From an uncultured Holophagaceae bacterium (lineage in GTDB: Bacteria; Acidobacteriota; Holophagae; Holophagales; Holophagaceae), in assembly GCA_903884655.1 (NCBI GenBank), contig CAISFO010000044.1:1-64000 (forward strand): a stretch of DNA of 64,000 bases, given 5' to 3'. The stretch's first letter is position 1; each line of letters begins with the position of its first letter. Position numbers and translations under genes: made by a program. The notes beneath the pieces were generated by a model that was not told where the DNA came from, made no database searches, and was given only the letters and a program-made list of their open reading frames with translations. Positions 19,906 to 34,855 of this stretch are shown here, one piece after another.

Positions 19906-20748
19906 ATGTCTGCCACGAAGAATCCTCTGCTGAACCGCATCCACAGCGCCCAAGGGCTGTCCCCCAGTCAGCGGCAGATCGCCGACTGCCTCATCGCCAA
20001 CTTGAATGAGGCGGCTCTCTGGGGCGTGGAGGAATTGGCACAGAAAACACAGACGTGCGTAGCCACGGTGGTCCGTTTCGCCAAGAAGCTGGAGTATTCG
20101 GGCTACCTGGAAATGCGTAAGGCGCTGGTCACAGACGCCAAGAAACACTACCGACGAGGGGAACAGCTGCTCCAGGCCCCCGTGAAGGCGTCCGCAACGC
20201 TCCTGGAAGTGGCGCGAAGGGACCTGCGCAACATCGATACCCTGGTCAAGGCTGTGGATGAGAATCTCCTCCAGCAGGTGGTGAAACTGGTGAAGAACAG
20301 CCATTACCGCCTGGCGATCGGCGATGGCGTATCGGCCCTCATGGCCCGTCAGTTCGCCTATCTGCTGCTCAACATCGGCCTGCCCGTGATGGAGGGCAAT
20401 CCTGCAGACTTCGCCACCCAGGTCGGCATGCTTGGGTCGCAGGATCTCTTGATCGCCATCAGCATCAGCCCCTACTCGCAGGAGACCATCGACGCAGGGG
20501 CCTATGCCCGGAAACGGGGCATCCCCGTCCTGGCCTTCACGGACAGCAAGAACTCACCCCTGGTCAAGTCGGCCTCGCTGATTCTGCCCATCCCCGGGGA
20601 GAACCTGCTCTTTTCCCACAGCCTGACGGCCTTCGGCGTCCTGGCTCACGCCATTGCCACCTCCATCGCCAGCCAGGAGCCCCAGGTGGCCTTGAGCAAG
20701 ATGCGTGAAGTCGAGCGGGTGGCTCGGAAGAAGTTCACCAAGATCTGA
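19906..20748 (+). CDS. RpiR/MurR-family transcriptional regulator with SIS domain
   Basis: The 280-residue protein has an N-terminal helix-turn-helix of the RpiR type (about 1-75; LSPSQRQIADCLI, TCVATVVRFAKKLEYSGY) and a C-terminal SIS domain (about 120-255; AISISPYSQETIDAGAYARK). RpiR proteins usually sense phosphosugars, but the downstream genes here concern peptides. It directly precedes the TonB receptor and peptidase genes, so it is the likely local regulator of that locus, as repressor or activator. The ATG at 19906 lies 22 bp after the YcaQ-like stop. Confidence 0.88.
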   Translation: MSATKNPLLNRIHSAQGLSPSQRQIADCLIANLNEAALWGVEELAQKTQTCVATVVRFAKKLEYSGYLEMRKALVTDAKKHYRRGEQLLQAPVKASATLLEVARRDLRNIDTLVKAVDENLLQQVVKLVKNSHYRLAIGDGVSALMARQFAYLLLNIGLPVMEGNPADFATQVGMLGSQDLLIAISISPYSQETIDAGAYARKRGIPVLAFTDSKNSPLVKSASLILPIPGENLLFSHSLTAFGVLAHAIATSIASQEPQVALSKMREVERVARKKFTKI

Positions 20749-20834
20749 ACTCGCGACCGGTTCGCAACAGTCGACATTGGCGCAGTTTCCGAAATTCTGG
20801 CACTGGTTGGGTTGGTTCGTGAATGAAAAAAAAC

Positions 20835-20863
20835 TTGACTTCAATATAGCATAAGCATTATTT
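20835..20863 (+). promoter_or_regulatory. Candidate promoter of the TonB receptor/peptidase locus
   Basis: In an AT-rich part of the 157-bp gap after the RpiR gene, TTGACT (20835-20840) is followed after 17 bp by TTATTT (20858-20863). The -35 box is close to consensus and the -10 box weak. It lies about 43 bp before the receptor start codon, consistent with a regulated promoter under the adjacent RpiR protein. No clear palindromic operator was found. Confidence 0.35.
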
Positions 20864-20905
20864 TTTGGTCACCACTTCAACAATGTCCATCCTTTCGGAG
20901 GCGTG

Positions 20906-23695
20906 ATGACCAGAAGCTCTGGCAGTACCAGACTCAGTGCGCTTGTCCTGGCGCTTGTGGCGTGTCCCGTCGCACTCCTGGCCCAAAGCAGCACCACGGC
21001 CGCCCTCACCGGCCTGGTCAAGGACCCCAAGGGCGCACCCTTCGCAGGCGCCACGGTGCGGATCGGTTCAGAATCCCTGATCGGTGGTGAGCGGGTCGTC
21101 CGGACGGCGCAGAATGGCACCTACCGCATCCCCATGCTGGCCCCGGGCAGGTACCGGATCGTGGTCGAGGCCCCCGGTCTGACGACCATCGTCAGCAACG
21201 AGACCCTCGAACTGGGCAAGACCACCACCCTCAATTGGAAGTTCGCTGCGGCAGCTTCCGCCACGGTGGAAGTGGTCGAGTCCGCCTCGGGAGACGCCTC
21301 CACCACCAGCCTGACTCAAAACTACAGCACCGAGGACCTGGCCACGCTCCCCGTCGACCGGACGATGTCGGGCATCATGAACCTCACGCCCGGCGTGAAC
21401 GGCAAGGCCGCCTGGGGTGGAGACACCAGCGAGAACGCCTGGCTCATGGACGGCATGAACATCGGCGATGTCTCCGGAGGTAGCCAGTGGCTGTACGCCA
21501 ATCCCGACTGGTTCAGTGAAGTACAGGTGGGCGGTATCGGCGCCGCGGCGGAATATGGCAACTTCAACGGCGGCTACACCAACGCCCTGGTGAAGCGCGG
21601 TGGCAATGAGTTGTCAGGTTCCTTCAACCTCTACTACGCGGACTCGAACTGGCAGGCCAAGACCTCGAATCGCTACCCCGGCCTGAACCGGGACCTCCAG
21701 CCCGGCAAGACCTACGACGCCGCCATCAATGTCGGGGGCCCCATCATCAAGGACAAGCTCTGGTTCTTCGCCTCGGCCTGGGCCAGCCAGGATCAGACGA
21801 CCCCCATTGGCGCCCTGGCCGGAGTATCGCGCAGCTACCGGAATTTCCTGACCAAGTTCACCTGGCAGGCCACCCCGGACGCCACCCTGGAGACGCTCCT
21901 GGAATACGATGCCCTGCCCGAAACGAACAAGGGCCTCGACAACACCGTCCAGCCCATCGCCTCCCACAACCAGATCGCGCCGGATCGCCTCTTCAACGTC
22001 ATCTGGACCCAGACCCTGAACTCCGCCACGGTGCTGACGGCCAAGATTTCCGGGTACTCCGGCAACTACGAGGAGCGGCCCAACAATGGCAACCAGCCCA
22101 GCCTGAACGCCGAGGGCAGCCTCACCACCACCACCCTGGACTATTTCGGCAACAACCAGTGGTACCGAAACAACTACCGGGCCCGCATCGAAGGCGCCGT
22201 CACCCTCGACTACTTCCGGACCAGCCTGATCGTGCCCGGCGATTCCCACGCCTTCCGCTTCGGCCTCGAGCAGGCCCAGGCCTCCAACGAAGACGCCAAG
22301 CTCCCCACGGGCGGCGCCCAGTTCTATGCCTATGAGGGAGACACGGCCGGTCTCGTCACCCCCGACTACTTCGACGTCGGTGGGGGCTACAACATCAAGA
22401 TGCACAGCAACCGCTCGGCCCTGTACCTCCAGGACAACTGGACCGTGAGCGACCGCCTGACCTTGCAGCCGGGCATCCGGTTCGAGAAATACACCGCCCG
22501 CGGCTACGGGCAATCCAGCAACATCTGGGACAAGCAGGTCGCCGCCCCCCGCTTCGGCGGCTCCATTGCCCTCACAGCAGACCAGAAAAACATCTTCAAG
22601 TTCCACTGGGGCAAATACTACGCGGCCTTCTCCTCCTGGTTCGTGGACCGCACCTACCAGTCCTGGATTCCCAAGATGACGGAATACCACTGGCAGGGGA
22701 GCGATTTCAATCCCTTGACGACCCCTGCAAGCCAGTACACCGCCGGGGACCGAGCCCCCGACTTCAGTGCCGGCAACGTCTCATATACCGCCAACAACAT
22801 CTCGCCGGTGGACCCCAATGCCAAGCAGCCCTACACCGAGGAGACAACCTTCTCCTTCGAGCACAAGTTCGAGGGCCCCTGGCGGGTGTCGGCGACCTGG
22901 GTCTACCGGCAGCAGAAGGACATCCTGGTCCGGAAGGATATGGCGGACATCACGTCGGGGCCTAATGCCACCGGTTATTGGGAGACCGACACCGCCTATT
23001 ACAAGAACCATGGAGTCCCCCAGGACCTCACCTGGTGGAATTCGAGCGTGGATCCCAACAACCCGAATGGCAAAAACTGGCTGGTGGCCACCGAGCCCAC
23101 CGCCAAGCGCAACTACGTGGCCGGGACCCTGGTGATCGAGCGCAAGTGGATGGATGACTGGAGCCTGAACGCCAGCTTCACCCGCGCCCGGCGCTACGGC
23201 AACGTGGGCGAGTCGGACGGCTACGACTCCTGGGCCCCCTATGAGAGCCCCAACTACCTGATCAATTCCTATGGCCTGCTGCCGGGCTACAACGACTACG
23301 AGGGCAAGATCCGTGGCATGGTCAAGCTGCCCTGGGACATGAAGCTGGCCTTGAACTTCACCTACCTCAGCGGCCAGCGCTTCACTCCCTACGCACGCAC
23401 TTATCATGCGGACGGACCCCTCTTAGATGGCAATGGCCCGCGCACATACGTGTTCGTGGAAGCCCGGGGCAGCGAGAAGTACCCCAGTGAGCACCTCCTG
23501 GACGTGCGCTTGAGCAAGGACGTCAAGTTCTCCGCCAAGACGAAGCTCGAGGTCTTCGGTCAGGTTTTCAACCTCACGAACACCGGCACGACCCTCGCCT
23601 ACTCCTCTGAGCGCATCAACAGCAGCAGCTACGGCATTCCCAGTTCCGTCGAACTGGGCCGTCGCCTCCAGCTCGGTGCGCGCTTCAGCTTCTAG
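20906..23695 (+). CDS. Oar-like TonB-dependent outer-membrane receptor
   Basis: The 929-residue protein has a signal peptide (about 1-28, ending LLAQS), a carboxypeptidase-regulatory-like beta-sandwich (about 30-110; GLVKDPKGAPFAGATVRI), a plug domain (LPVDRTMSGIMNLTPGV, WLMDGMNIGD) and a large beta-barrel ending in phenylalanine (LGARFSF). This Oar-like form is typical of Acidobacteriota. The ATG at 20906 is preferred to the GTG three bases earlier because GGAGG lies at 20897-20901. Being first in a peptidase locus, it probably imports a peptide or polymer fragment across the outer membrane. A terminator-like hairpin follows. Confidence 0.9.
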   Translation: MTRSSGSTRLSALVLALVACPVALLAQSSTTAALTGLVKDPKGAPFAGATVRIGSESLIGGERVVRTAQNGTYRIPMLAPGRYRIVVEAPGLTTIVSNETLELGKTTTLNWKFAAAASATVEVVESASGDASTTSLTQNYSTEDLATLPVDRTMSGIMNLTPGVNGKAAWGGDTSENAWLMDGMNIGDVSGGSQWLYANPDWFSEVQVGGIGAAAEYGNFNGGYTNALVKRGGNELSGSFNLYYADSNWQAKTSNRYPGLNRDLQPGKTYDAAINVGGPIIKDKLWFFASAWASQDQTTPIGALAGVSRSYRNFLTKFTWQATPDATLETLLEYDALPETNKGLDNTVQPIASHNQIAPDRLFNVIWTQTLNSATVLTAKISGYSGNYEERPNNGNQPSLNAEGSLTTTTLDYFGNNQWYRNNYRARIEGAVTLDYFRTSLIVPGDSHAFRFGLEQAQASNEDAKLPTGGAQFYAYEGDTAGLVTPDYFDVGGGYNIKMHSNRSALYLQDNWTVSDRLTLQPGIRFEKYTARGYGQSSNIWDKQVAAPRFGGSIALTADQKNIFKFHWGKYYAAFSSWFVDRTYQSWIPKMTEYHWQGSDFNPLTTPASQYTAGDRAPDFSAGNVSYTANNISPVDPNAKQPYTEETTFSFEHKFEGPWRVSATWVYRQQKDILVRKDMADITSGPNATGYWETDTAYYKNHGVPQDLTWWNSSVDPNNPNGKNWLVATEPTAKRNYVAGTLVIERKWMDDWSLNASFTRARRYGNVGESDGYDSWAPYESPNYLINSYGLLPGYNDYEGKIRGMVKLPWDMKLALNFTYLSGQRFTPYARTYHADGPLLDGNGPRTYVFVEARGSEKYPSEHLLDVRLSKDVKFSAKTKLEVFGQVFNLTNTGTTLAYSSERINSSSYGIPSSVELGRRLQLGARFSF

Positions 23696-23707
23696 CTCCA
23701 CAGACCG

Positions 23708-23751
23708 ACCGCTTGCAGTGGGTTTAGAGGCCTGCTGCAGGCGGTTTTCTT
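23708..23751 (+). terminator. Hairpin with T-tract after the TonB receptor
   Basis: ACCGCTTGCAG (23708-23718) pairs with CTGCAGGCGGT (23735-23745) in an 11-bp stem containing one G-T wobble, directly followed by TTTTCTT. It has the form of an intrinsic terminator between the receptor and the cyanophycinase gene. Read-through may lower expression of the enzymes relative to the receptor. Confidence 0.6.
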
Positions 23752-23762
23752 GAGGGACGGCC

Positions 23763-24584
23763 ATGCTCCGACGAATCCTCCCCCTCTTCCTCGCCAGCCT
23801 TGTCCTCAGCGCCGCCCCCAGGGGCACCCTGGTCATCGTGGGCGGAGGCGGCATGCCGCAGGAGATCATGGACGCCTTCCTGGCGGCCTCCGGCGGCAAG
23901 GGCGGGCGGGTGGGCATCATCCCCACGTCCACCAGCGATCCTGAGGGCGCCCTCAAGGAGTGGCGGGAGGACCTCGACAAGGCGGGCCTCGTCTGCGTGC
24001 CCCTGGATGTCCGCAAGCGGGAGGACGCCTCCGACTCCCAGCTGCTGGAACGGGCCCGGACCTGCAGCGGCTTCTGGTTCTCCGGCGGGGACCAGAACCG
24101 TGTGGGGGACCAGATCGTGGGCACGCCGCTGCAGCAGGTGGTCCGCGAGCGCTACGAGGCCGGGGCCGCCATCGGGGGCACCAGCGCCGGGGCCGCCATC
24201 ATGTCGAAGCTCATGCTCACGGGTGACGACCGGAACGGCAAGGAAGCCCTCTCCGAGTTCGGCCCCGGCGCCTACAAGACCCGGGAGGGCATGGGTTTCC
24301 TGCCCGAGGGTGTGGTGGTGGACCAGCACTTCCTGCGCCGGGGCCGGGCGAACCGGCTCTTCAGCGTGATCATGGAACACCCAGATTTTCTGGGCCTGGG
24401 GATCGACGAGGCCACAGCCCTGCTGGTGAAGGATGGCAAGGCGAAGGTGGTGGGCAAGCGCTCCGTGATGGTTTTCGATCCGGCGGGCATGGCCCTGAAG
24501 GGCGCCTCGTTCCAGAACCTCCGCATCCATGTGCTCCGGTCCGGCCAGTCCATCAACCTGGCCACCCGCAAGGTCGCCCCCTGA
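23763..24584 (+). CDS. Secreted cyanophycinase family peptidase (S51)
   Basis: The 273-residue protein has a signal peptide (about 1-19) followed at once by the S51 core: TLVIVGGGG, FSGGDQNR (about 106-113), the nucleophile motif GGTSAGA with Ser141, and DQHFLRRGRANRL (about 187-199). These match cyanophycinase, which cleaves the arginyl-aspartate polymer cyanophycin to beta-Asp-Arg dipeptides. Export implies that it attacks extracellular or periplasmic substrate and not a storage polymer of its own cell. The downstream isoaspartyl dipeptidase would complete the breakdown. The stop and the next ATG share one base. Confidence 0.88.
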   Translation: MLRRILPLFLASLVLSAAPRGTLVIVGGGGMPQEIMDAFLAASGGKGGRVGIIPTSTSDPEGALKEWREDLDKAGLVCVPLDVRKREDASDSQLLERARTCSGFWFSGGDQNRVGDQIVGTPLQQVVRERYEAGAAIGGTSAGAAIMSKLMLTGDDRNGKEALSEFGPGAYKTREGMGFLPEGVVVDQHFLRRGRANRLFSVIMEHPDFLGLGIDEATALLVKDGKAKVVGKRSVMVFDPAGMALKGASFQNLRIHVLRSGQSINLATRKVAP

Positions 24585-26068
24585 TGCGCGGCGCGCAGGT
24601 CGTCAGCCTTCTGCTGCTCGTGGCGACGGCGGCCTTCGCCGGCCCCGTGCCAGCGCCCTTCCCGGCCGACCACCGCAGCATGCGGAAAACGGTGTCCTAC
24701 GGGGAAATGGCGACTTTCCTCGAAGCCGTGGCCAGACCCGGCTTCATCACCGTCACAGAAGAGGGCCGCAGCACGGAAGGGCGGAAGATCCTGCTGGTCC
24801 ACCTCAACCGGGGGGGCACCAGGGCCCGCTTCAGGGTGCTCTACTACGCCCAGCAGCACGGGGACGAGGTGGCGGGCAAGGACGCCCAGCTCACGCTCAT
24901 CCGCGATATCGCGGAACACCCAGAGTGGCTGCCCCTGGATGTAGATCTCTACCTCATGCCCATGCTCAATCCCGATGGCGCCGAGGCCCATCGCCGCCTC
25001 AATGGCGCGGGCGCCGACCTGAACCGCGACCACCTGCTCCTGGCCCAGCCCGAGACCCGGGCCTTGCACCGCGTGGCCCGCCGCATCCGCCCCCACGTCG
25101 CGGTGGACAGTCACGAGTTCGGCCGGGATGGCGAAGCGTATCGCGCCAAGGGCTGGGCGCCCTGGCCCATCATCACCATGGATGCCTGCAACCACCCGCT
25201 GATCCCGGACTACCTCAGAGCCGCCGCCCTGGAGGCCGTGGCCACCGCCGCGCCGCTTCAGGCCCGGGCCGGGCACACCTACCAGCGCTATTCCGTAGGT
25301 GGGCCGCCTCCGGACGAAGAGATCCGGCCCTCCACGCCGGAAGTGGATGACGGCCGCAACAGTCTGGGCACCCTGGGCGCCCTCTCCTTCATCATCGAGG
25401 CCGGTGTCCATCACGAGGCCAAGGATCCCGATGCGGACCTGGGTGAGCGGGTGGACGGCTACCGCATCCTCTACCGTCACCTGCTCGGCGACTCGGCCTG
25501 GCGTGACCGCATCCGGAAACTGGCGGAGCGGGCCCGCCGGGAACCCCTGCCCCCCTTCATCGCCACCAACGCCTTCTGGGCGAATCTGGGCGGTCGGGCC
25601 AGCACCGTGCGGGTGCAGGAGCTGGCCACTGGCCGGATGCTCGAGGTGCCCACGGCCCTGGCCATGACGGACCTGGTGGTGAAGGGCAGTGTGCCCACGC
25701 CCCGGGCCTATGCCATCGATGCCGCAGCCGCCGCGCGGTTCATCCCCGTCCTGGAAGCCCAGGGTCTGGCCTTCGAAACCCTGACTGCGCCCCGGAAGGC
25801 CTTGGTCGAGCGGGTCGGGCTGCTGCGGATCGAGGAGCCCTACGACGAGCTGTACCAGCGCTACAAGGACCGGCAGATCGTGGCACGCCGCCCCCCAGGT
25901 CAAGTGGAGCTGCCCGCTGGAACCCTCCTCGTATCCCTGGACCAGGCGCTGGCCCGCCGGGCCATCCAGGTGCTCGAACCCTGCCTGCTCTACGGACTCT
26001 ACGGCTACCCCGGCTTCCGCGAGCTCGCCAAACCCGGCGCTGACCTCCCGGTGTCCCGCCTCTTCTGA
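24584..26068 (+). CDS. Secreted M14-family zinc carboxypeptidase
   Basis: The 494-residue protein has a signal peptide (about 1-19) and an M14 catalytic domain with zinc ligands H92 and E95 (QQHGDE), H177 (DSHEFG), the substrate-binding pair N147-R148 and the catalytic glutamate E272 (FIIEAG). The C-terminal part (about 320-494) is not recognised. It overlaps the cyanophycinase gene by one base and directly precedes the isoaspartyl dipeptidase gene, so it may trim peptides or remove side-chain residues in the same pathway. The exact specificity cannot be read from sequence. Confidence 0.85.
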   Translation: MRGAQVVSLLLLVATAAFAGPVPAPFPADHRSMRKTVSYGEMATFLEAVARPGFITVTEEGRSTEGRKILLVHLNRGGTRARFRVLYYAQQHGDEVAGKDAQLTLIRDIAEHPEWLPLDVDLYLMPMLNPDGAEAHRRLNGAGADLNRDHLLLAQPETRALHRVARRIRPHVAVDSHEFGRDGEAYRAKGWAPWPIITMDACNHPLIPDYLRAAALEAVATAAPLQARAGHTYQRYSVGGPPPDEEIRPSTPEVDDGRNSLGTLGALSFIIEAGVHHEAKDPDADLGERVDGYRILYRHLLGDSAWRDRIRKLAERARREPLPPFIATNAFWANLGGRASTVRVQELATGRMLEVPTALAMTDLVVKGSVPTPRAYAIDAAAAARFIPVLEAQGLAFETLTAPRKALVERVGLLRIEEPYDELYQRYKDRQIVARRPPGQVELPAGTLLVSLDQALARRAIQVLEPCLLYGLYGYPGFRELAKPGADLPVSRLF

Positions 26069-26098
26069 ATGTCCCGGGCCCGCCCGGCTGGAGTTCCC

Positions 26099-27265
26099 AT
26101 GCTGCTCCTGATCAAGAACGCCGATGTCTACGCCCCCGAGAAAAGCGGCCGCTGTGACCTGCTCCTGGGTGGAGGCAAGATCCTCCTCATGGAACCGGAC
26201 ATCCGCATCCCCGGCAGGTATTGCGAGGTGATCGAGGCCCGCGACCTCCTAGCCGCGCCCGGCTTCATCGATGGTCACGTGCACATCATGGGCGGCGGCG
26301 GCGAAGGGGGTTTCGCCACCCGCACCCCGGGCCTGTCACTGACGGATGCCATCCTGGGCGGGGTCACCACCGTGGTCGGCTGCCTGGGCACCGACGGTTT
26401 CACCCGGACCATGGCCGGCCTGCTGGCCAAGGCCAAAGGACTGGACGAGGAGGGCATCAGCACCTTCGTCTACTCGGGCTCGTACGGCCTGCCCCTGCGC
26501 ACGCTCATGCCCAGCCTCGAAGAGGACCTGCTGTTCATCGACAAGGTGATCGGCGCAGGGGAAGTGGCCCTCTCGGACCACCGCTCCAGCCAGCCGACCT
26601 TCGAGGCCTTCGCCCAGCTGGTCGGGATGGCCCGGCGTGGCGGCCTGCTTTCGGGCAAGGCCGGGATCGTGAACGTCCATCTGGGCGATGGCCCGCGCGG
26701 ACTGGACTTCCTGCGCCGGGTCCTCGCTGAGACCGAGCTTGCCCCCAGCCAGATGTGGCCCACCCACATCAACCGCAATCCGAGTCTCTTCGAGGAGGGC
26801 ATCGCCTACGCCAAGGCTGGCGGGTTCGTGGATTTCACCACCTCGACGCTGGCGTCCTACCTGGATGGCGGCGAGATTACCTGCAGCGTGGCCCTGCGCC
26901 GGATGCTGGAAGCCGGGGTCGACCCGGGTCAGGTCACCTTCACTTCCGACGGCCAGGGCAGCCTCCCGGACTGGGATCCCGCTGGCCGACTGCAGGACAT
27001 CTCCGTAGGCCGGGTTACCTCGCTCTTCCCGGCCGTGCGCAAGGCTGTCCTCGAGGAGGGCATCGCCCTCGAGACGGCTCTGCGCGTCATCACCGCCAAT
27101 CCCGCCCGCATCCTCAAGCTGAAAGCCAAGGGCCGCCTGGCGCCGGGAATGGACGCAGACCTGGTCCTGCTGGAGCCGGGCAAACTCGAGATCCGGACCG
27201 TCATCGCCAAGGGGAGGCTCCTCATGAAAGGCGGCAAGCCCCTGGCCAAGGGTATGTTTGAGTAG
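26099..27265 (+). CDS. iadA: Isoaspartyl dipeptidase (beta-aspartyl peptidase, M38)
   Basis: From the ATG at 26099 (MLLLIKNADVYAPEKSG) the protein is 388 residues, nearly the size of E. coli IadA (390). It has the amidohydrolase metal motif GFIDGHVHIMG, the conserved GGVTTVVGCLGTDG, HLGDG, THINRNP, and TSDGQGS with the catalytic aspartate. No signal peptide is present, so it acts in the cytoplasm on imported dipeptides. Beta-Asp-Arg, the cyanophycinase product, is a plausible substrate. An upstream ATG at 26069 would add ten residues without a ribosome-binding site. Confidence 0.9.
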   Translation: MLLLIKNADVYAPEKSGRCDLLLGGGKILLMEPDIRIPGRYCEVIEARDLLAAPGFIDGHVHIMGGGGEGGFATRTPGLSLTDAILGGVTTVVGCLGTDGFTRTMAGLLAKAKGLDEEGISTFVYSGSYGLPLRTLMPSLEEDLLFIDKVIGAGEVALSDHRSSQPTFEAFAQLVGMARRGGLLSGKAGIVNVHLGDGPRGLDFLRRVLAETELAPSQMWPTHINRNPSLFEEGIAYAKAGGFVDFTTSTLASYLDGGEITCSVALRRMLEAGVDPGQVTFTSDGQGSLPDWDPAGRLQDISVGRVTSLFPAVRKAVLEEGIALETALRVITANPARILKLKAKGRLAPGMDADLVLLEPGKLEIRTVIAKGRLLMKGGKPLAKGMFE

Positions 27266-27278
27266 CAAGGGGACGACC

Positions 27279-28478
27279 ATGTTCAAACGATCCATCATCC
27301 TCATCGTGCTCGCGGGCCTTGCCCGGGTCAGCCTGCTGGCCCAAGGCGCCGAGCAGTGCACCACCACCGTGATCACCCCGGCCGCCAGTGCCAGCGGGCG
27401 CCCCATGCTGTGGAAGAACCGGGACACGGATGTCCTCTCCAACAAGGTGGTGTTCATCCGGGAGCAGCCCTTTTCCTACCTCGCCCTGGTGGATGCGGAG
27501 GATGCCAGTGGCAGGCGGGCCTGGGCGGGACTCAATGCCGCCGGCTTTGGCATCATGAACACCGTGGCCTACAACCTGCCTGGGGCCCTGACCGGGGACA
27601 TGAAGGATCAGGAAGGCTGCGTCATGGCGGATGCCCTGCGCACCTGCCGCACCGTGGCAGATTTCGAGGCCTACCTGAAGGCCAATCAGGGCCCGGGCCT
27701 GGGCTGCCAGACCAATTTCGGCGTCATCGACGCCACCGGGCGGGCCGTCCTCATTGAGACCCACAACCGCGGCTACCGGATTCTTGAAGCCTCCGAGCCC
27801 TCCGAGAAATGCCTCGTCAATTCCAACTGGTCCCGCTCCGGCCAGCCCGGCAAGGGCGCGGGCTACCTGCGCTTCGAGCGGGCCACGGAGCTGTTGCGCA
27901 CCACGACCCCCGGGCAGCTGACCCCCCATGAGATCTTCCGCCGCATGGCCCGGGATACGGGCCATGTGCTACTGCAGACTCCCACCATCGCCGAGCTGAA
28001 GGCACTGCCCGCCAAGCCCCACTGGATCCTCACCAAGGACTGCATCAACAAATCTTATACATCCTGTGCCGTGGTGCTGGTGGGCAAGGACCCCAAGAAT
28101 CCCGCCTCCCGGGCGACCTTCTGGGTCCTGCCCGGCGAGCCCGTCACTGCCGTGGCCCTGCCCCTCTGGGTGGAGGCCGGATCGGTCCCGGAAGCCTTCT
28201 GGAAAGGGAAGGATGCGCCCCTCTGGTCGGAATCCCTGCGCATCAAGAAGCGCATCCGGCCCTTCCCGGAAACCGAAAAGCAGGAGTACCTGGATCTTGC
28301 GGGCCTCGACAACCGGGAGGGCACCGGCTTCCTGCCCCGCCTCCTGGCGGCCGAGGACCAGGTCTTCCAGAAGGTGCAGGCCTTCGGTGATGGGCCCAAG
28401 ACACCTGATGAGCTGGTGACCCTTCAGAACGAACTGGCCCATCTGGCTCTGGAAGCCATGAAGGGCATCCAGCCCTGA
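27279..28478 (+). CDS. Secreted C45-type Ntn hydrolase (acyltransferase/choloylglycine hydrolase-like)
   Basis: From the ATG at 27279 (preceded by AAGGGGAC) the 399-residue protein has a signal peptide and then EQCTTTVITP with Cys27 as candidate N-terminal nucleophile, followed by LWKNRDTD and GLNAAGFGIMNT. These are marks of the C45/choloylglycine-hydrolase Ntn fold. Such enzymes cleave or transfer amide bonds. In this locus it may hydrolyse an unusual peptide or acyl-amino-acid bond; the substrate is unknown. It begins 13 bp after iadA. Confidence 0.78.
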   Translation: MFKRSIILIVLAGLARVSLLAQGAEQCTTTVITPAASASGRPMLWKNRDTDVLSNKVVFIREQPFSYLALVDAEDASGRRAWAGLNAAGFGIMNTVAYNLPGALTGDMKDQEGCVMADALRTCRTVADFEAYLKANQGPGLGCQTNFGVIDATGRAVLIETHNRGYRILEASEPSEKCLVNSNWSRSGQPGKGAGYLRFERATELLRTTTPGQLTPHEIFRRMARDTGHVLLQTPTIAELKALPAKPHWILTKDCINKSYTSCAVVLVGKDPKNPASRATFWVLPGEPVTAVALPLWVEAGSVPEAFWKGKDAPLWSESLRIKKRIRPFPETEKQEYLDLAGLDNREGTGFLPRLLAAEDQVFQKVQAFGDGPKTPDELVTLQNELAHLALEAMKGIQP

Positions 28479-28535
28479 GTTCCTCAGCCGTGGGGAGGTC
28501 TCCCTGGAGGCCCCTGCCACCCTTCGAAAGCCCCC

Positions 28536-29978
28536 ATGAGCCCTGACCTCGCCCCAGTTCCGGCCCCGCCCAAATCCGGCCTCCGCATGCCCCACACCCT
28601 GGTCATCGTGGGGGCGCTGATCGTGGTTGTGCTCATCCTGTCCTGGCTGGTGCCTTCCGGCGAGTTCCAGCGCGTGGAGAAAGTGCTGTCGGACGGGAGC
28701 CGCCTGCGGGTGCCCGTGGATGGCACCTTCCAACGGCTGCCCAAGACCTACCTGGGCCTCCAGCAGCTGTTCCTGGCCCCCATCAAGGGCTTCATCGACG
28801 GGGCGGGCCTGATCTCCTTCCTGTTCATCATCGGCGGCAGTTTCGGCATCTTCCAGGAGACGGGGGCGGTGGAGCAGGGCATCAAGCGGCTCACCGTCCA
28901 TGTGCGGCGCCACCCCTTCCTGGAGCTGCTCTTCATCCCCGTGCTGATGACCGTGTTCTCCCTGGCGGGCGCCGTGTTCGGCATGGCCGAAGAGCTCATC
29001 CCCCTGGTGATTATCTTCATCGCCCTCTCCCGGGCGCTGGGCTACGACTCCATTGTGGGCACGGCGATTCCCTTCCTCGGGGCGGCGGCGGGCTTCGCCT
29101 GTGCCTTTTTCAACCCCTTCACCGTGGGAGTGGCCCAGGGCATCGCCGGCGTTCCGATCTACTCGGGCCTGGCCTACCGGGTGTGCGCCTGGGTGGTGGC
29201 CACCAGTGTCGTGATTGCCTACGTGATGATCTACGCCGCCAAGGTCAGGCGGAACCCCGCACTGAGCCCGGTCCGGGAGCTCGACCTGGCCCGGACGACC
29301 CCGGCCGCAGCCGGAGCCGACGAGGCCTGGAACACCTCGCACGTCCTCTCGCTCCTGGCCTTCCTGGGGGCTGTCCTCCTGCTGGTGTATGGCGTCCTGA
29401 AGTTCCACTGGTACCTGGAGCCTATCGCGGCCCTCTTCCTCGTCATGGGCATCGTCATCGGCCTTCTCTCGCGGATGGGGCCCAGCACCATCGCCAAGCA
29501 CTTCGTCACCGGGGCCAAGGACATGGTGGGCGTGGTGTTCATCGTGGCCAGCGCCCGCGCCCTGCTGGTCATCGCCAACCAGGCGCAGATCATGGACACC
29601 CTCTTGCTCTATGGCTCCATCGCCATCGGGGTGCTGCCCAAGCCCGTCACCGCCCAGGTCATGTTCCTGGTGCAGTGCGTCATCAACTTCTTCGTCCATT
29701 CCGGCACGGCCCAGGCGGCCCTCACCATGCCGGTCCTGGCGCCCCTGTCGGATCTGGTGGGCATCACCCGGCAGACCTGCGTCTACAGCTTCGCCCTCTC
29801 GGAGCTCATCAATCCAATCCTGCCCACCAGCGCCGTGACCATGGGCATCCTGGGCGCGGCGAAGATCCCCTGGGAGGTATGGGCCAAGTGGTTCCTGCCG
29901 CTGATGCTCATCCTGGTGGTCCTGGCCTTCCTGCTGCTGGTGCCTCCGACCCTGCTGTTCCACTGGGGACCGGTGTGA
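28536..29978 (+). CDS. YfcC-family inner-membrane transporter (ArcD/DcuC-like)
   Basis: The 480-residue protein has about 12 transmembrane segments and YfcC-family stretches (LSWLVPSGEFQRV near the first helix, FLFIIGGSFGIFQETGA, NFFVHSGTAQAALTMP, ELINPILPTS). Family members are annotated as basic amino-acid or C4-dicarboxylate carriers. Arginine, aspartate or a dipeptide would suit a cyanophycin-degrading pathway, which is inference. It follows the C45 gene by 57 bp and overlaps the M28 gene by 4 bp. Confidence 0.88.
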   Translation: MSPDLAPVPAPPKSGLRMPHTLVIVGALIVVVLILSWLVPSGEFQRVEKVLSDGSRLRVPVDGTFQRLPKTYLGLQQLFLAPIKGFIDGAGLISFLFIIGGSFGIFQETGAVEQGIKRLTVHVRRHPFLELLFIPVLMTVFSLAGAVFGMAEELIPLVIIFIALSRALGYDSIVGTAIPFLGAAAGFACAFFNPFTVGVAQGIAGVPIYSGLAYRVCAWVVATSVVIAYVMIYAAKVRRNPALSPVRELDLARTTPAAAGADEAWNTSHVLSLLAFLGAVLLLVYGVLKFHWYLEPIAALFLVMGIVIGLLSRMGPSTIAKHFVTGAKDMVGVVFIVASARALLVIANQAQIMDTLLLYGSIAIGVLPKPVTAQVMFLVQCVINFFVHSGTAQAALTMPVLAPLSDLVGITRQTCVYSFALSELINPILPTSAVTMGILGAAKIPWEVWAKWFLPLMLILVVLAFLLLVPPTLLFHWGPV

Positions 29979-31528
29979 GGCGGTTCCGCCTCCCGCTGCT
30001 CGCCCTGCCCTGCCTCCTCACCGGCTTGGCGCTGGCCCAGGAACCGCGGGAAGACTTCATCCGCGCCACCCAGCAGTCCTCGCTCCCGGCACCGCTGTCG
30101 GAGTGCCTGGAAAGCCTGGACACGCGCCGTATCGTTCAGCATCTGACCTTTCTCACCGATCCCCACCAGGAAGGGCGCGGCCTGGGCACCAGGGGCCTGG
30201 AGGCCACGGCCCACTACCTCGCGGAACACCTGAAGACCCTTGGGCTCTCGCCCATCGGCGCCACGTATCTCCAGCCTGTGCCCCTGCGGGAAGTGCGTCC
30301 GGAAGGCGGATCCATCCGGCTGGCCACCGGGTCCAACTCGTACACGTTCAGCGCCGGCCGGGACGCGGTGCTCCCGGCCATCGCGCCCGGCACCCTCGCT
30401 GGACCGGCGGTCTTCGTCGGCTTCGGCATCCAGGAGCCTCTGCTCGACTGGGACGACTTTCGCGGCATCGACGTGCGCGGGAAGATCGTGGTCTTCCTGG
30501 ACGGCCACCCTGCAGGTGAGGCCTGGCAGGCACCGGGCCTGCTCGAGAAGTACGCCTCGCCCCGTCCCGCGGACCGCTATGACACTCGACTGGCGCTGCT
30601 GGAGAAGCTGGGCGCCAAGGCCGCCATCGCCCTGGAGGAGGGTCTCGATCGGCGCCTCGCCGAAGGCCGGGAACCCACCCAGCCCTACTTCCTCGCGGCC
30701 CGGAGGGGGTCCGCCTCCGGAGAGCCCCCTTTGGCGCGGATTGGGCTCACGGAAGCGCTCCGAGCCATGGCCAGAGCCGGTGGCACTGGCACCGCCACCC
30801 TGACCATCCGTGGCCGGGTGCGGGAGCTCCGCAGCTGCAACGTGCTCGGCAGGCTGGCGGGCGCCGACCCGATCCTGCGCAAGGAAGCCATCCTCCTCGG
30901 GGCCCACATGGACCACCTGGGTCTGCCCGGCGGCGTGCTGCATCCAGGTGCGGACGACAATGCCTCGGGAGTATCGGCCCTGCTGGAGCTGGCTCGGGTT
31001 CTTTCCCTGAGTCCCGTCCGTCCCCGGCGCACCATCCTTCTGGCTTTCTGGACCGGCGAGGAGGAGGGGAAGTTCGGCTCCGGCCACTACACCCGCCAGC
31101 CCCGCTGGCCCCTGGCTAGCACCAAGGCCTACCTGAACCTGGACATGATCGGCCATCCCTGGACTGTCGCGGACCTTCAGACGCTGATGGTCGATGCGAA
31201 GGGGCCAAAGGACTTCCTGGCGGGGCTGGAGCCCGCCCGGTTCGCGGAGCCCGGCCTCTCCCCGGCCCACCCAGGGATCGGTCCCATTCTCGCGGCGGCG
31301 GGGCTCGGCACGGGCATGTCCCTCCACCTAGACTGGACCGATGGCAAGAACGGGGGCAGCGACTACCGGGACTTCGCCCGGCGGAACGTGCCCTTCGTGC
31401 GGTTCTTCGGCAGCTACTTCCCGGACTACCACAAACCCGGCGACACGCTGGACAAGCTGGATCCGGAACAGGTGAAGCGCATGGCCCGGTTGATCCTCGC
31501 CACGGCCTGGCTGCTGGCGGATCGCTAG
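29975..31528 (+). CDS. Secreted M28-family zinc aminopeptidase with PA-like domain
   Basis: Starting at a GTG that overlaps the YfcC stop (GTGA), the 517-residue protein has a signal peptide (RRFRLPLLALPCLLTGLALA). The M28 zinc ligands and catalytic residues appear in GAHMDHLG, GADDNASG, WTGEEEGKFGS, LDMIGH and PDYHKPGDT. The region between about 130 and 290 corresponds to the PA-type insertion. It probably releases N-terminal residues from peptides in the periplasm. Its stop shares a CTAG with the stop of the convergent CapA-like gene. Confidence 0.9.
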   Translation: MRRFRLPLLALPCLLTGLALAQEPREDFIRATQQSSLPAPLSECLESLDTRRIVQHLTFLTDPHQEGRGLGTRGLEATAHYLAEHLKTLGLSPIGATYLQPVPLREVRPEGGSIRLATGSNSYTFSAGRDAVLPAIAPGTLAGPAVFVGFGIQEPLLDWDDFRGIDVRGKIVVFLDGHPAGEAWQAPGLLEKYASPRPADRYDTRLALLEKLGAKAAIALEEGLDRRLAEGREPTQPYFLAARRGSASGEPPLARIGLTEALRAMARAGGTGTATLTIRGRVRELRSCNVLGRLAGADPILRKEAILLGAHMDHLGLPGGVLHPGADDNASGVSALLELARVLSLSPVRPRRTILLAFWTGEEEGKFGSGHYTRQPRWPLASTKAYLNLDMIGHPWTVADLQTLMVDAKGPKDFLAGLEPARFAEPGLSPAHPGIGPILAAAGLGTGMSLHLDWTDGKNGGSDYRDFARRNVPFVRFFGSYFPDYHKPGDTLDKLDPEQVKRMARLILATAWLLADR

Positions 31529-33079: not shown

Positions 33080-34855
33080 CTACTTGCCGGGGCCTGGTTC
33101 CTGGTCGGGTCCCGGATTTGTTCCCTTGCGGGTCGGCATCATGGCCCCGATGGCCTTGAAGAGGGTCGCGGTGGCCTTCAGGGTTTCCGCCCGCACGGCC
33201 CCGCGCAGCTCGACCATGGCCGGATCCAGCGAGAGGGTGAGGCCCGCGGCGGGCACCTCCGGGATGGCCGGAAGGGGCTTCGCATCAGGTCCGCCGAAAG
33301 CACCAGCCAACACGGAGGCCATGTCCCGCAGGCCGCGGGGATCCACGAAGAGCACGAAGCGGTGGTCCTTGCCAAGGTCCGGCTCCACCGCGGCGATGCT
33401 GGGAGCCAGCCCCTGCGGGGCTTTCCGGAGGTCGTCCAGGCGGGCCTTCAGGAGTTCGCGGCCACCCATCACCGCCAGGATCCGGTGGTCGTCCAGGGCC
33501 CCCATGGACATTTCGATGGACTCGCCGCCGAGGAGCATGGTCACGGCCATCTTGGCCGCGGCCATGGCGGGATCATCCTTCATGGCCAGACGGGTGGTCA
33601 CGCCGCAGCTGGGCACTTCGGGCAGGATGCCGCGAGTGAAGGTCACTGCGTCCGGCATCCCCAGATCCTGGAAAAAGGCACCCTGGGCCCTGCTGGTCTC
33701 TTCCATGGCGGCCAGGTAGGCCTGGCTGTCGGACACGCGGACGATGGAGGTTAAACCACTCAGCAGGGCGGTCCTGGGTGCAGGGGCGCTGAAGGTCCCC
33801 GCCATCGAGCGCACCATGGCGGTCTGAGTGGCCAGGGCCTTCTGCAGCCTGGCTGCGGTGGCAGGTTGCACCTTGCCCGCCTTGTCCAGGTCTTCCAGCA
33901 GCGCCGTCTGGAAATCGTAGAGCATGCTCCACTCTCCACCGAAGGCGAGGGCGAAGTCCGGCGTGCTCAGCCCATTCAGGGGGTGGCCCACCACGGGCGG
34001 CAGCGCAGTCAGTTCCCGGCTCAAGTCGCTGTCCTTGGTCAGGAGGGCCTGGGCCTGGAAGGTCAGGCCGCCTTCCTTGGACAGGTCCAGACCGAACAGC
34101 GCATGGTGCACGCTGGTCCTGGCCAGATCCGCCCAGTGGCTGAATTTGGACTGGAGCCGGGCGCCCGCCTTGGAAGGCGGCGGCGTGGCCGCGCCTGCCT
34201 TGGGTTCCACGGCCTTGGGCTGGAAGGCTTGGCTCGCCGCCTGAGCGGCCTCGGCCACCGCCGCCTGGGTGGCCACCACGCTGAGGTCATGGCTTTCCAG
34301 CCAGGCCGAGTAGGGAGCCAGTTCCGCGGCCAGCGTGCTGGTGGGCTTCCTGAACGCGGCCAGGTCGGCCTCGCTGTTGGCCACCACCAGGAACCCGGCC
34401 TTGGCCATGGCGAACAGGGGGGTAGGGGCTGCGGCCTTCAGGTGCTTCTTCGCGACAGGGGCCGGGGCATCCCAGCTCCACACTCCGGCTTTCTGTGTGA
34501 TGTGCAGGCCCTGGAGTACCGCCTTGGAATCCTTCGTGGGCAGCAGCCAGGCCCAGGTTTCGGCCTGCCCGGGGACATGGAAGGAAACTCGGGCCAGAGG
34601 TCCGGAACCCAGATGGGAGGGATCAATGCCCGTCTGGCCTTTCAACTCCAGAAGGCCGTCCTTGCTCCCGAAGATGGCCAGCAGCCTGGACCACTTCGCC
34701 TCCAGCTGCCTGAAATCCGGGTAATACATCAAAGTCTGGGCCTGTCCCGGAACCAGTTCCAGCACCCGCGGCACCGGGTTGACCGGGGCCAGGGCCGAGG
34801 CTCCAGTCGCCAAGGTGAGCAGTACGGGCACGGCGAGCAGACGCGAGATGTGCAT
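33080..34855 (-). CDS. Secreted hypothetical protein
   Basis: The 591-residue protein has a signal peptide (MHISRLLAVPVLLTLATGAS) and a long alanine- and leucine-rich body with repeated segments of mixed helix/strand. Around 225-240 it is proline/lysine-rich (PKAGAATPPPSKAGARLQ) and it ends in a glycine/proline tail. No catalytic motif or known domain was recognised; the general look recalls DUF3352-type periplasmic proteins, which is tentative. It is divergent from the methyltransferase gene, with only 37 bp between the starts. Confidence 0.65.
   Translation of the reverse strand: MHISRLLAVPVLLTLATGASALAPVNPVPRVLELVPGQAQTLMYYPDFRQLEAKWSRLLAIFGSKDGLLELKGQTGIDPSHLGSGPLARVSFHVPGQAETWAWLLPTKDSKAVLQGLHITQKAGVWSWDAPAPVAKKHLKAAAPTPLFAMAKAGFLVVANSEADLAAFRKPTSTLAAELAPYSAWLESHDLSVVATQAAVAEAAQAASQAFQPKAVEPKAGAATPPPSKAGARLQSKFSHWADLARTSVHHALFGLDLSKEGGLTFQAQALLTKDSDLSRELTALPPVVGHPLNGLSTPDFALAFGGEWSMLYDFQTALLEDLDKAGKVQPATAARLQKALATQTAMVRSMAGTFSAPAPRTALLSGLTSIVRVSDSQAYLAAMEETSRAQGAFFQDLGMPDAVTFTRGILPEVPSCGVTTRLAMKDDPAMAAAKMAVTMLLGGESIEMSMGALDDHRILAVMGGRELLKARLDDLRKAPQGLAPSIAAVEPDLGKDHRFVLFVDPRGLRDMASVLAGAFGGPDAKPLPAIPEVPAAGLTLSLDPAMVELRGAVRAETLKATATLFKAIGAMMPTRKGTNPGPDQEPGPGK

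Follow-up and report, generated by a model that had tools for sequence, protein, structure and literature searches.

We describe here a block of eight genes from an uncultured soil or sediment bacterium of the genus Geothrix (Acidobacteriota, Holophagaceae; assembly GCA_903884655.1, contig CAISFO010000044.1) that, to judge by its sequence, most probably constitutes a TonB-linked cyanophycin-utilisation locus. Cyanophycin is a nitrogen store of other bacteria, and we consider it likely that cyanophycin from outside the cell is the main substrate of the block. The genes lie at 19906-31528 of the window, by which we mean the whole stretch of 64,000 nucleotides analysed (positions 1 to 64,000 of the contig). 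Inspection of the open reading frames (ORFs) places every one of them on the + strand, overlapping or separated by short gaps. A cyanophycinase, an isoaspartyl dipeptidase and a transporter are clustered, the combination by which cyanophycin utilisation loci are recognised, and CphA1 is absent from the assembly (best match far below cut-off; assembly 93.6% complete). The original prediction had proposed that foreign cyanophycin is cut outside the cell and that the dipeptides are imported and split inside. This proposal is supported by the kept residues of CphB, the absence of CphA1, the co-occurrence of the partners and the isofunctional gene swaps. The same partners also recur outside this genome, in about 30 Holophagaceae loci and in other families; a lack of such co-occurrence was among the outcomes that the prediction itself had named as refuting it.

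The cyanophycinase, a predicted exported protein of peptidase family S51 (23763-24584), scores 175.8 bits against the TIGR02069 cyanophycinase model, well above the cut-off of 126.6. The key residues of Synechocystis CphB are Ser132, His174, Glu201, Gln101, Asp172, Gln173, Arg178, Arg180 and Arg183 (Law et al., as given in PMC3235067). All nine are kept in the window protein, as catalytic S141, H189 and E216 and substrate residues Q111, D187, Q188, R193, R195 and R198, and they are invariant in every member of its clade that was examined. In the alignment, several of the substrate residues are missing from PepE and from the actinobacterial S51 protein 6nqc. An AlphaFold model of the protein (mean pLDDT 87) finds as its best match cyanophycin-bound CphB, 7uqw (E 3.8e-24, TM 0.83-0.86), followed by 3en0 and 7uqv, with PepE far behind. 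By these measures the active site is intact, and the protein is a predicted cyanophycinase.

A tree of 71 S51 sequences resolves three groups: a CphE-type group (support 100/100), a CphB/CphI group (96/96), in which the CphA1-linked genes fall together with both solved enzymes, and an exported group that holds the window protein (98/94). The tree has long branches, and the placements of loci L026, L040 and L042 are unsure. According to this tree, the window protein belongs to a third, exported cyanophycinase clade, which is neither CphB/CphI nor CphE. It resembles the intracellular CphB/CphI enzymes (3en0, 7uqw, 7uqv) in fold and in catalytic and substrate residues. However, those enzymes have no signal peptide, usually stand beside CphA1 and carry GGAExK where the window protein has GGGG; the window protein has a leader, in an assembly without CphA1. 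The same division is seen within the phylum, where CphA1-linked S51 proteins are leaderless with GGAExK, and members of the exported group have a leader and a GGG- or GGH-type sequence at that site. With CphE, the extracellular cyanophycinase of Pseudomonas that has been proven on cyanophycin (PMC3235067), the window protein shares predicted export, the catalytic triad and the arginine-pocket residues. CphE differs in having Thr for Gln173 (Gln188 in the window protein) and about 420 residues instead of 273, and the CphE-type clade excludes the window protein. It is tempting to go further and see in the exported clade a third functionally distinct cyanophycinase whose export arose separately from that of CphE and which, with M14 and class-switching TonB receptors, degrades cyanophycin variants (e.g. 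with Lys or other side chains) poorly handled by CphB and CphE; the M14 carboxypeptidase, nearly always adjacent, could then strip side-chain arginines. We consider this proposal unlikely.

The families of the partner genes were assigned by Pfam/NCBIfam profile search of the window proteins, which bears out most of the family names first proposed. The dipeptidase IadA (26069-27265) scores 487.6 bits against TIGR01975 (cut-off 331.25), matches a solved isoaspartyl dipeptidase by phmmer at 5e-105, and contains the HxH motif, the further metal ligands and the substrate motifs. The carrier (28536-29978) belongs to the YfcC/DcuC family (PF03606, DcuC, 306 bits); the narrower name YfcC did not hold, at 358 bits against the 500 required by the NF008611 equivalog. 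The Oar-like TonB-dependent receptor (TBDR; 20906-23695) matches CarboxypepD_reg (PF13620) and the Oar-type barrel OMP_b-brl_4 (PF25183), and the Pfam scan did not report the PF07715 plug domain. An RpiR-family protein with HTH_6 and SIS domains (19906-20748), whose position is conserved in the genus, is the probable regulator of the block. The likely starts were revised to 20906 for the receptor, 26069 or 26099 for IadA and 27279 for a C45-like gene. Export signals were judged by eye and by hydrophobicity, as a basic and then hydrophobic N-terminal stretch. Secretion-type N-termini were seen in the TBDR, S51, M14, C45-like and M28 proteins, and inspection of IadA and RpiR revealed no such start.

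We hypothesize that the Oar-like receptor would bind cyanophycin or its fragments and draw them through the outer membrane, and that the exported S51 enzyme would cut the poly-Asp backbone to beta-Asp-Arg, either in the periplasm or outside the cell. Passage of the dipeptide, or of its released amino acids, through the inner membrane would fall to the YfcC carrier, and IadA, presumed cytoplasmic, would then split beta-Asp-Arg to Asp and Arg. RpiR would sense the supply and switch the operon through the conserved element that precedes the receptor gene. The other four proteins, M14, M28, C45-like and CapA, would not be essential; they may act on other peptides by trimming them, or on amide polymers of a related kind. 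Neighbourhood and replacement make it rather probable that the receptor carries cyanophycin fragments. On the same grounds, we give an even chance to YfcC as the carrier of the dipeptide, and propose it as importer of the beta-aspartyl dipeptide or its amino acids. A literature search for YfcC together with dipeptides returned nothing relevant.

Genome comparisons indicate that the partner genes are not chance neighbours. Among 46 genomes of the same genus, Geothrix, S51 and IadA are found in an identical set of 23, and YfcC in those 23 plus one. Identical sets would arise by chance with a probability of about 1e-13 if the genomes were independent, but they are related by ancestry and the figure is a guide only. 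About 30 Holophagaceae loci share the same gene order. In eight genomes without the locus the site is empty, AlkZ adjoining the methyltransferase gene that in the window borders the block, and hence everything from RpiR to CapA seems to have been gained or lost as one unit. This unit extends beyond the border of the original prediction to 32907, the limit of a convergent gene for an exported CapA-like protein (PGA_cap, PF09587; 31525-32907, - strand). The CapA-like gene is absent from 12/12 locus-less and present in 3/3 locus-bearing Geothrix genomes tested; no CapA was found in L099, L103 and L104, which come from more distant Holophagaceae.

In other families the gene set recurs in rearranged form, with RpiR again adjoining TBDR-S51 and YfcC beside S51 or IadA. 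The exported clade is spread over several acidobacterial families. CphA1 lies within reach in 0/34 exported-clade loci and a TBDR in 29/34; the CphB comparison set was picked for CphA1 linkage, so that its 11/11 is not independent evidence. Where IadA is absent, IaaA (Asparaginase_2) stands in, beside RpiR-TBDR-S51 in L119 and beside RpiR-TBDR-YfcC-S51 in L128. Similarly, an OPT peptide transporter in L102 holds the place that YfcC occupies in the sister locus L105. Feeding on beta-aspartyl dipeptides predicts such stand-ins, and both swaps therefore point to the same pathway. L102 and L105 encode CphE-type S51 proteins, in which Thr replaces Gln173, and in L105 this enzyme is accompanied by RpiR, TBDR, IadA and YfcC. 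In Pseudomonadota (398 genomes sampled), a CphE-type S51 gene is divergent from TBDR-YfcC-IadA in one genome (L192), and CphE-type S51 occurs with IaaA and TBDR in L187 and L190.

The gap between RpiR and the receptor has diverged except for a promoter/operator-like element at 20824-20873 (+ strand), of the form TGAAAAAAAACTTGACT-N-AGCATTATTTTTTGGTCACC with inexact inverted halves TGAnnAAAAAnT. In all 16 of the loci aligned, a block TGAAAAAAAACTTGACTC followed by AGCATTACTTTTTGGTCA is kept, and the first half of the element also precedes the receptor in L099 and L103, two loci of more distant Holophagaceae. The 12-base core of the element, AAAAAACTTGAC, is found just twice in the whole 3.9-Mb assembly, once here and once in the counterpart on contig C56. 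In one of the other families (f3) RpiR is divergent and the gap holds repeats of the TGAAA-N6-TTTCA type. We think it somewhat probable that RpiR binds the candidate element upstream of the receptor. The element was also considered as a plain sigma-70 promoter (TTGACT, 18-base spacer, 9/12 match). The region holds three such matches against a shuffle mean of 1.1; since shuffles give them too, this match was not used, and the case for the element is made from conservation and rarity alone. An Rfam search of the locus gave no match, and a terminator scan of the region showed no excess.

Several observations weigh against utilisation of foreign cyanophycin as the function of the block. Export of S51, M14, the C45-like protein and M28 is a prediction from signal peptides called by eye and hydrophobicity, and we know of no member of the exported S51 clade whose activity has been measured. 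The substrate assigned to YfcC is a candidate, and in genus g5 the gene is remote from the locus. None of the partners is seen in three exported-clade loci (L137, L138 and L026). The co-occurrence counts within the genus are not independent, since the genomes share ancestry. Finally, the IadA enzymes of cyanophycin clusters are promiscuous (PMC10206079), so that the presence of IadA does not fix the substrate. This promiscuity would suit a general scavenging of isoaspartyl or damaged peptides from dead cells, in which M14, M28 and the C45-like protein are the main enzymes, beta-linked ends are left to S51 and IadA, and cyanophycin is one substrate among others. Three exported peptidase-like genes beside S51, with M14 in nearly all Holophagaceae loci, agree with such a role. 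Nevertheless, M14, M28 and C45 are missing from the loci of other families, and from some of Holophagaceae, that retain S51, the receptor, and the dipeptidase or carrier; moreover, S51 keeps all the CphB substrate residues, unlike PepE, the general dipeptidase of family S51. We consider general scavenging improbable.

Less probable still is that the block serves a different amide polymer, such as poly-gamma-glutamate or a beta-linked cell-wall peptide. The idea is suggested by M14, whose family members act on many amide links, and by the CapA-like gene within the block gained or lost in Geothrix. However, CapA is missing from the three distant loci mentioned above, the arginine-pocket residues of S51 are invariant, and the same partners accompany CphE-type enzymes, which in Pseudomonas act on cyanophycin itself (PMC3235067). 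Least probable of all is that the block turns over cyanophycin made by the cell itself, or the cell's own isoaspartyl damage. Cyanophycinase and IadA do serve cyanophycin-making cells as well (PMC10206079), and some Geothrix relatives have CphA1. Yet this assembly has none, S51 carries a signal peptide that the CphA1-linked proteins lack, and the genomes G004 and G036 hold both kinds of S51 at separate places. Cyanophycin makers and eaters likely occur in one genus.

The remaining hydrolase genes of the block, M14, M28 and the C45-like gene, are considered accessory because they are absent from part of the loci. M14 (24584-26068) is a predicted exported zinc carboxypeptidase-like protein in which H92, E95, H177 and E272 are conserved in the alignment, and its residues 21-312 adopt a carboxypeptidase fold (Z about 24). 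An attempt to read specificity from the structure was dropped: carboxypeptidase A and B types tie, and the comparison supports the fold only. M28 (29975-31528, GTG start; PF04389, 135 bits), also with a predicted export signal, is conserved in Geothrix loci. The predicted exported C45-like Ntn hydrolase (27279-28478) has a Cys just after the signal peptide; its assignment to C45 was not borne out, at 46 bits against the NF040521 cut-off of 85 and with no Pfam family, and a search of the PDB gave no informative relative. Among the loci compared, its gene is restricted to the window, the C56 counterpart and the locus of G060. At the end of the G060 contig (L102, 9175-12654) there is a second group of RpiR, C45-like and TBDR genes, which suggests that the C45-like gene may belong to RpiR-TBDR modules of its own. 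The CapA-like protein also matches, below cut-off, a lasso-peptide Trp epimerase model. Pfam assigns no family to a 591-residue ORF (33080-34855, minus strand) located between CapA and the methyltransferase, and comparison with sister loci gave no match to it.

The receptor gene has diverged much more than any other in the block, with a median identity of 47% against 69-86% for the other genes. The receptor (20906-23695) and its counterparts in L005-L103 form discrete classes, mostly 76-100% identical within and 40-55% between classes, amid neighbours that are 70-90% alike. Alleles of the receptor thus appear to be exchanged while the operon around them stays stable, for which phage or bacteriocin pressure, or a change of substrate, are possible causes.

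Three further observations concern relatives of the locus. Contig C56 of the same assembly (G000; L091, L194, L195 and L196) is syntenic with the window over 2.3-35.5 kb, at about 80% identity and with non-locus genes included. A paralogous second copy was rejected, as the match covers 33 kb including unrelated flanks and a single copy is the rule in sister genomes; the C56 locus is probably an orthologue from a co-binned related species. In some Holophagaceae (L093 of G004, L106 of G064), two members of the same genus being among these bacteria, CphA1 comes with a CphB that has no leader and with a further CphA-like gene. A contig recorded as Bacillota (Bacillota bacterium MH_R1_5; L020) carries a typical Holophagaceae S51 locus and is most likely mis-binned.

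The original prediction overstated the novelty of such a system. It is established that genomes without CphA1 can carry cyanophycinase and isoaspartyl dipeptidase for scavenging, the genes being clustered in 45/52 such genomes (PMC10206079). Strain L21-Spi-D4 (Salinivirga) has a cyanophycin utilisation locus (Ben Hania 2017, cited in PMC10206079) in which, as in the window, genes for a transporter and a cyanophycinase accompany iadA, for environmental scavenging. That locus belongs to another phylum, and the window adds RpiR, the Oar-like receptor, YfcC, M14, M28 and CapA, the Salinivirga receptor and transporter types falling outside this comparison. A TBDR adjoining cyanophycinase was described in 2012 for Citromicrobium, with cyanophycin proposed as substrate (PMC3400609). 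The neighbourhood is alike, whereas the wider gene set, regulator and dipeptidase do not form part of that description as far as it is drawn on here. Among Acidobacteriota, Ca. Sulfomarinibacter was reported in 2021 to have Sec-exported cyanophycinases, no CphA, and IadA in one genome (PMC8528874). It shares with the window the phylum, the exported cyanophycinase and the lack of CphA, but operon, receptor and regulator are not part of the portion of that account considered here, and the comparison does not extend to S51 clades. Holophagaceae are themselves said to have cyanophycinase (PMC11561045). What stands of the claim is an exported branch with its own receptor, regulator and importer. 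In the literature searched, with most subscription papers outside it, we found no account of the exported sister clade of CphB as a group, of the RpiR/Oar/YfcC set with its swaps, of the block from border to border, or of the element.

In summary, few cyanophycin-scavenging systems have been described beyond their enzymes, and this block offers clear borders, a candidate operator, and a named receptor and carrier. Its exported cyanophycinase clade occurs in several acidobacterial families, and no assay of a member was found in the literature searched. The block is carried by the cultured Geothrix limicola, so that cyanophycin uptake by a TonB receptor and import of beta-Asp-Arg are directly testable. 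The block also suggests that cyanophycin may serve as a source of nitrogen in anoxic soils and sediments.

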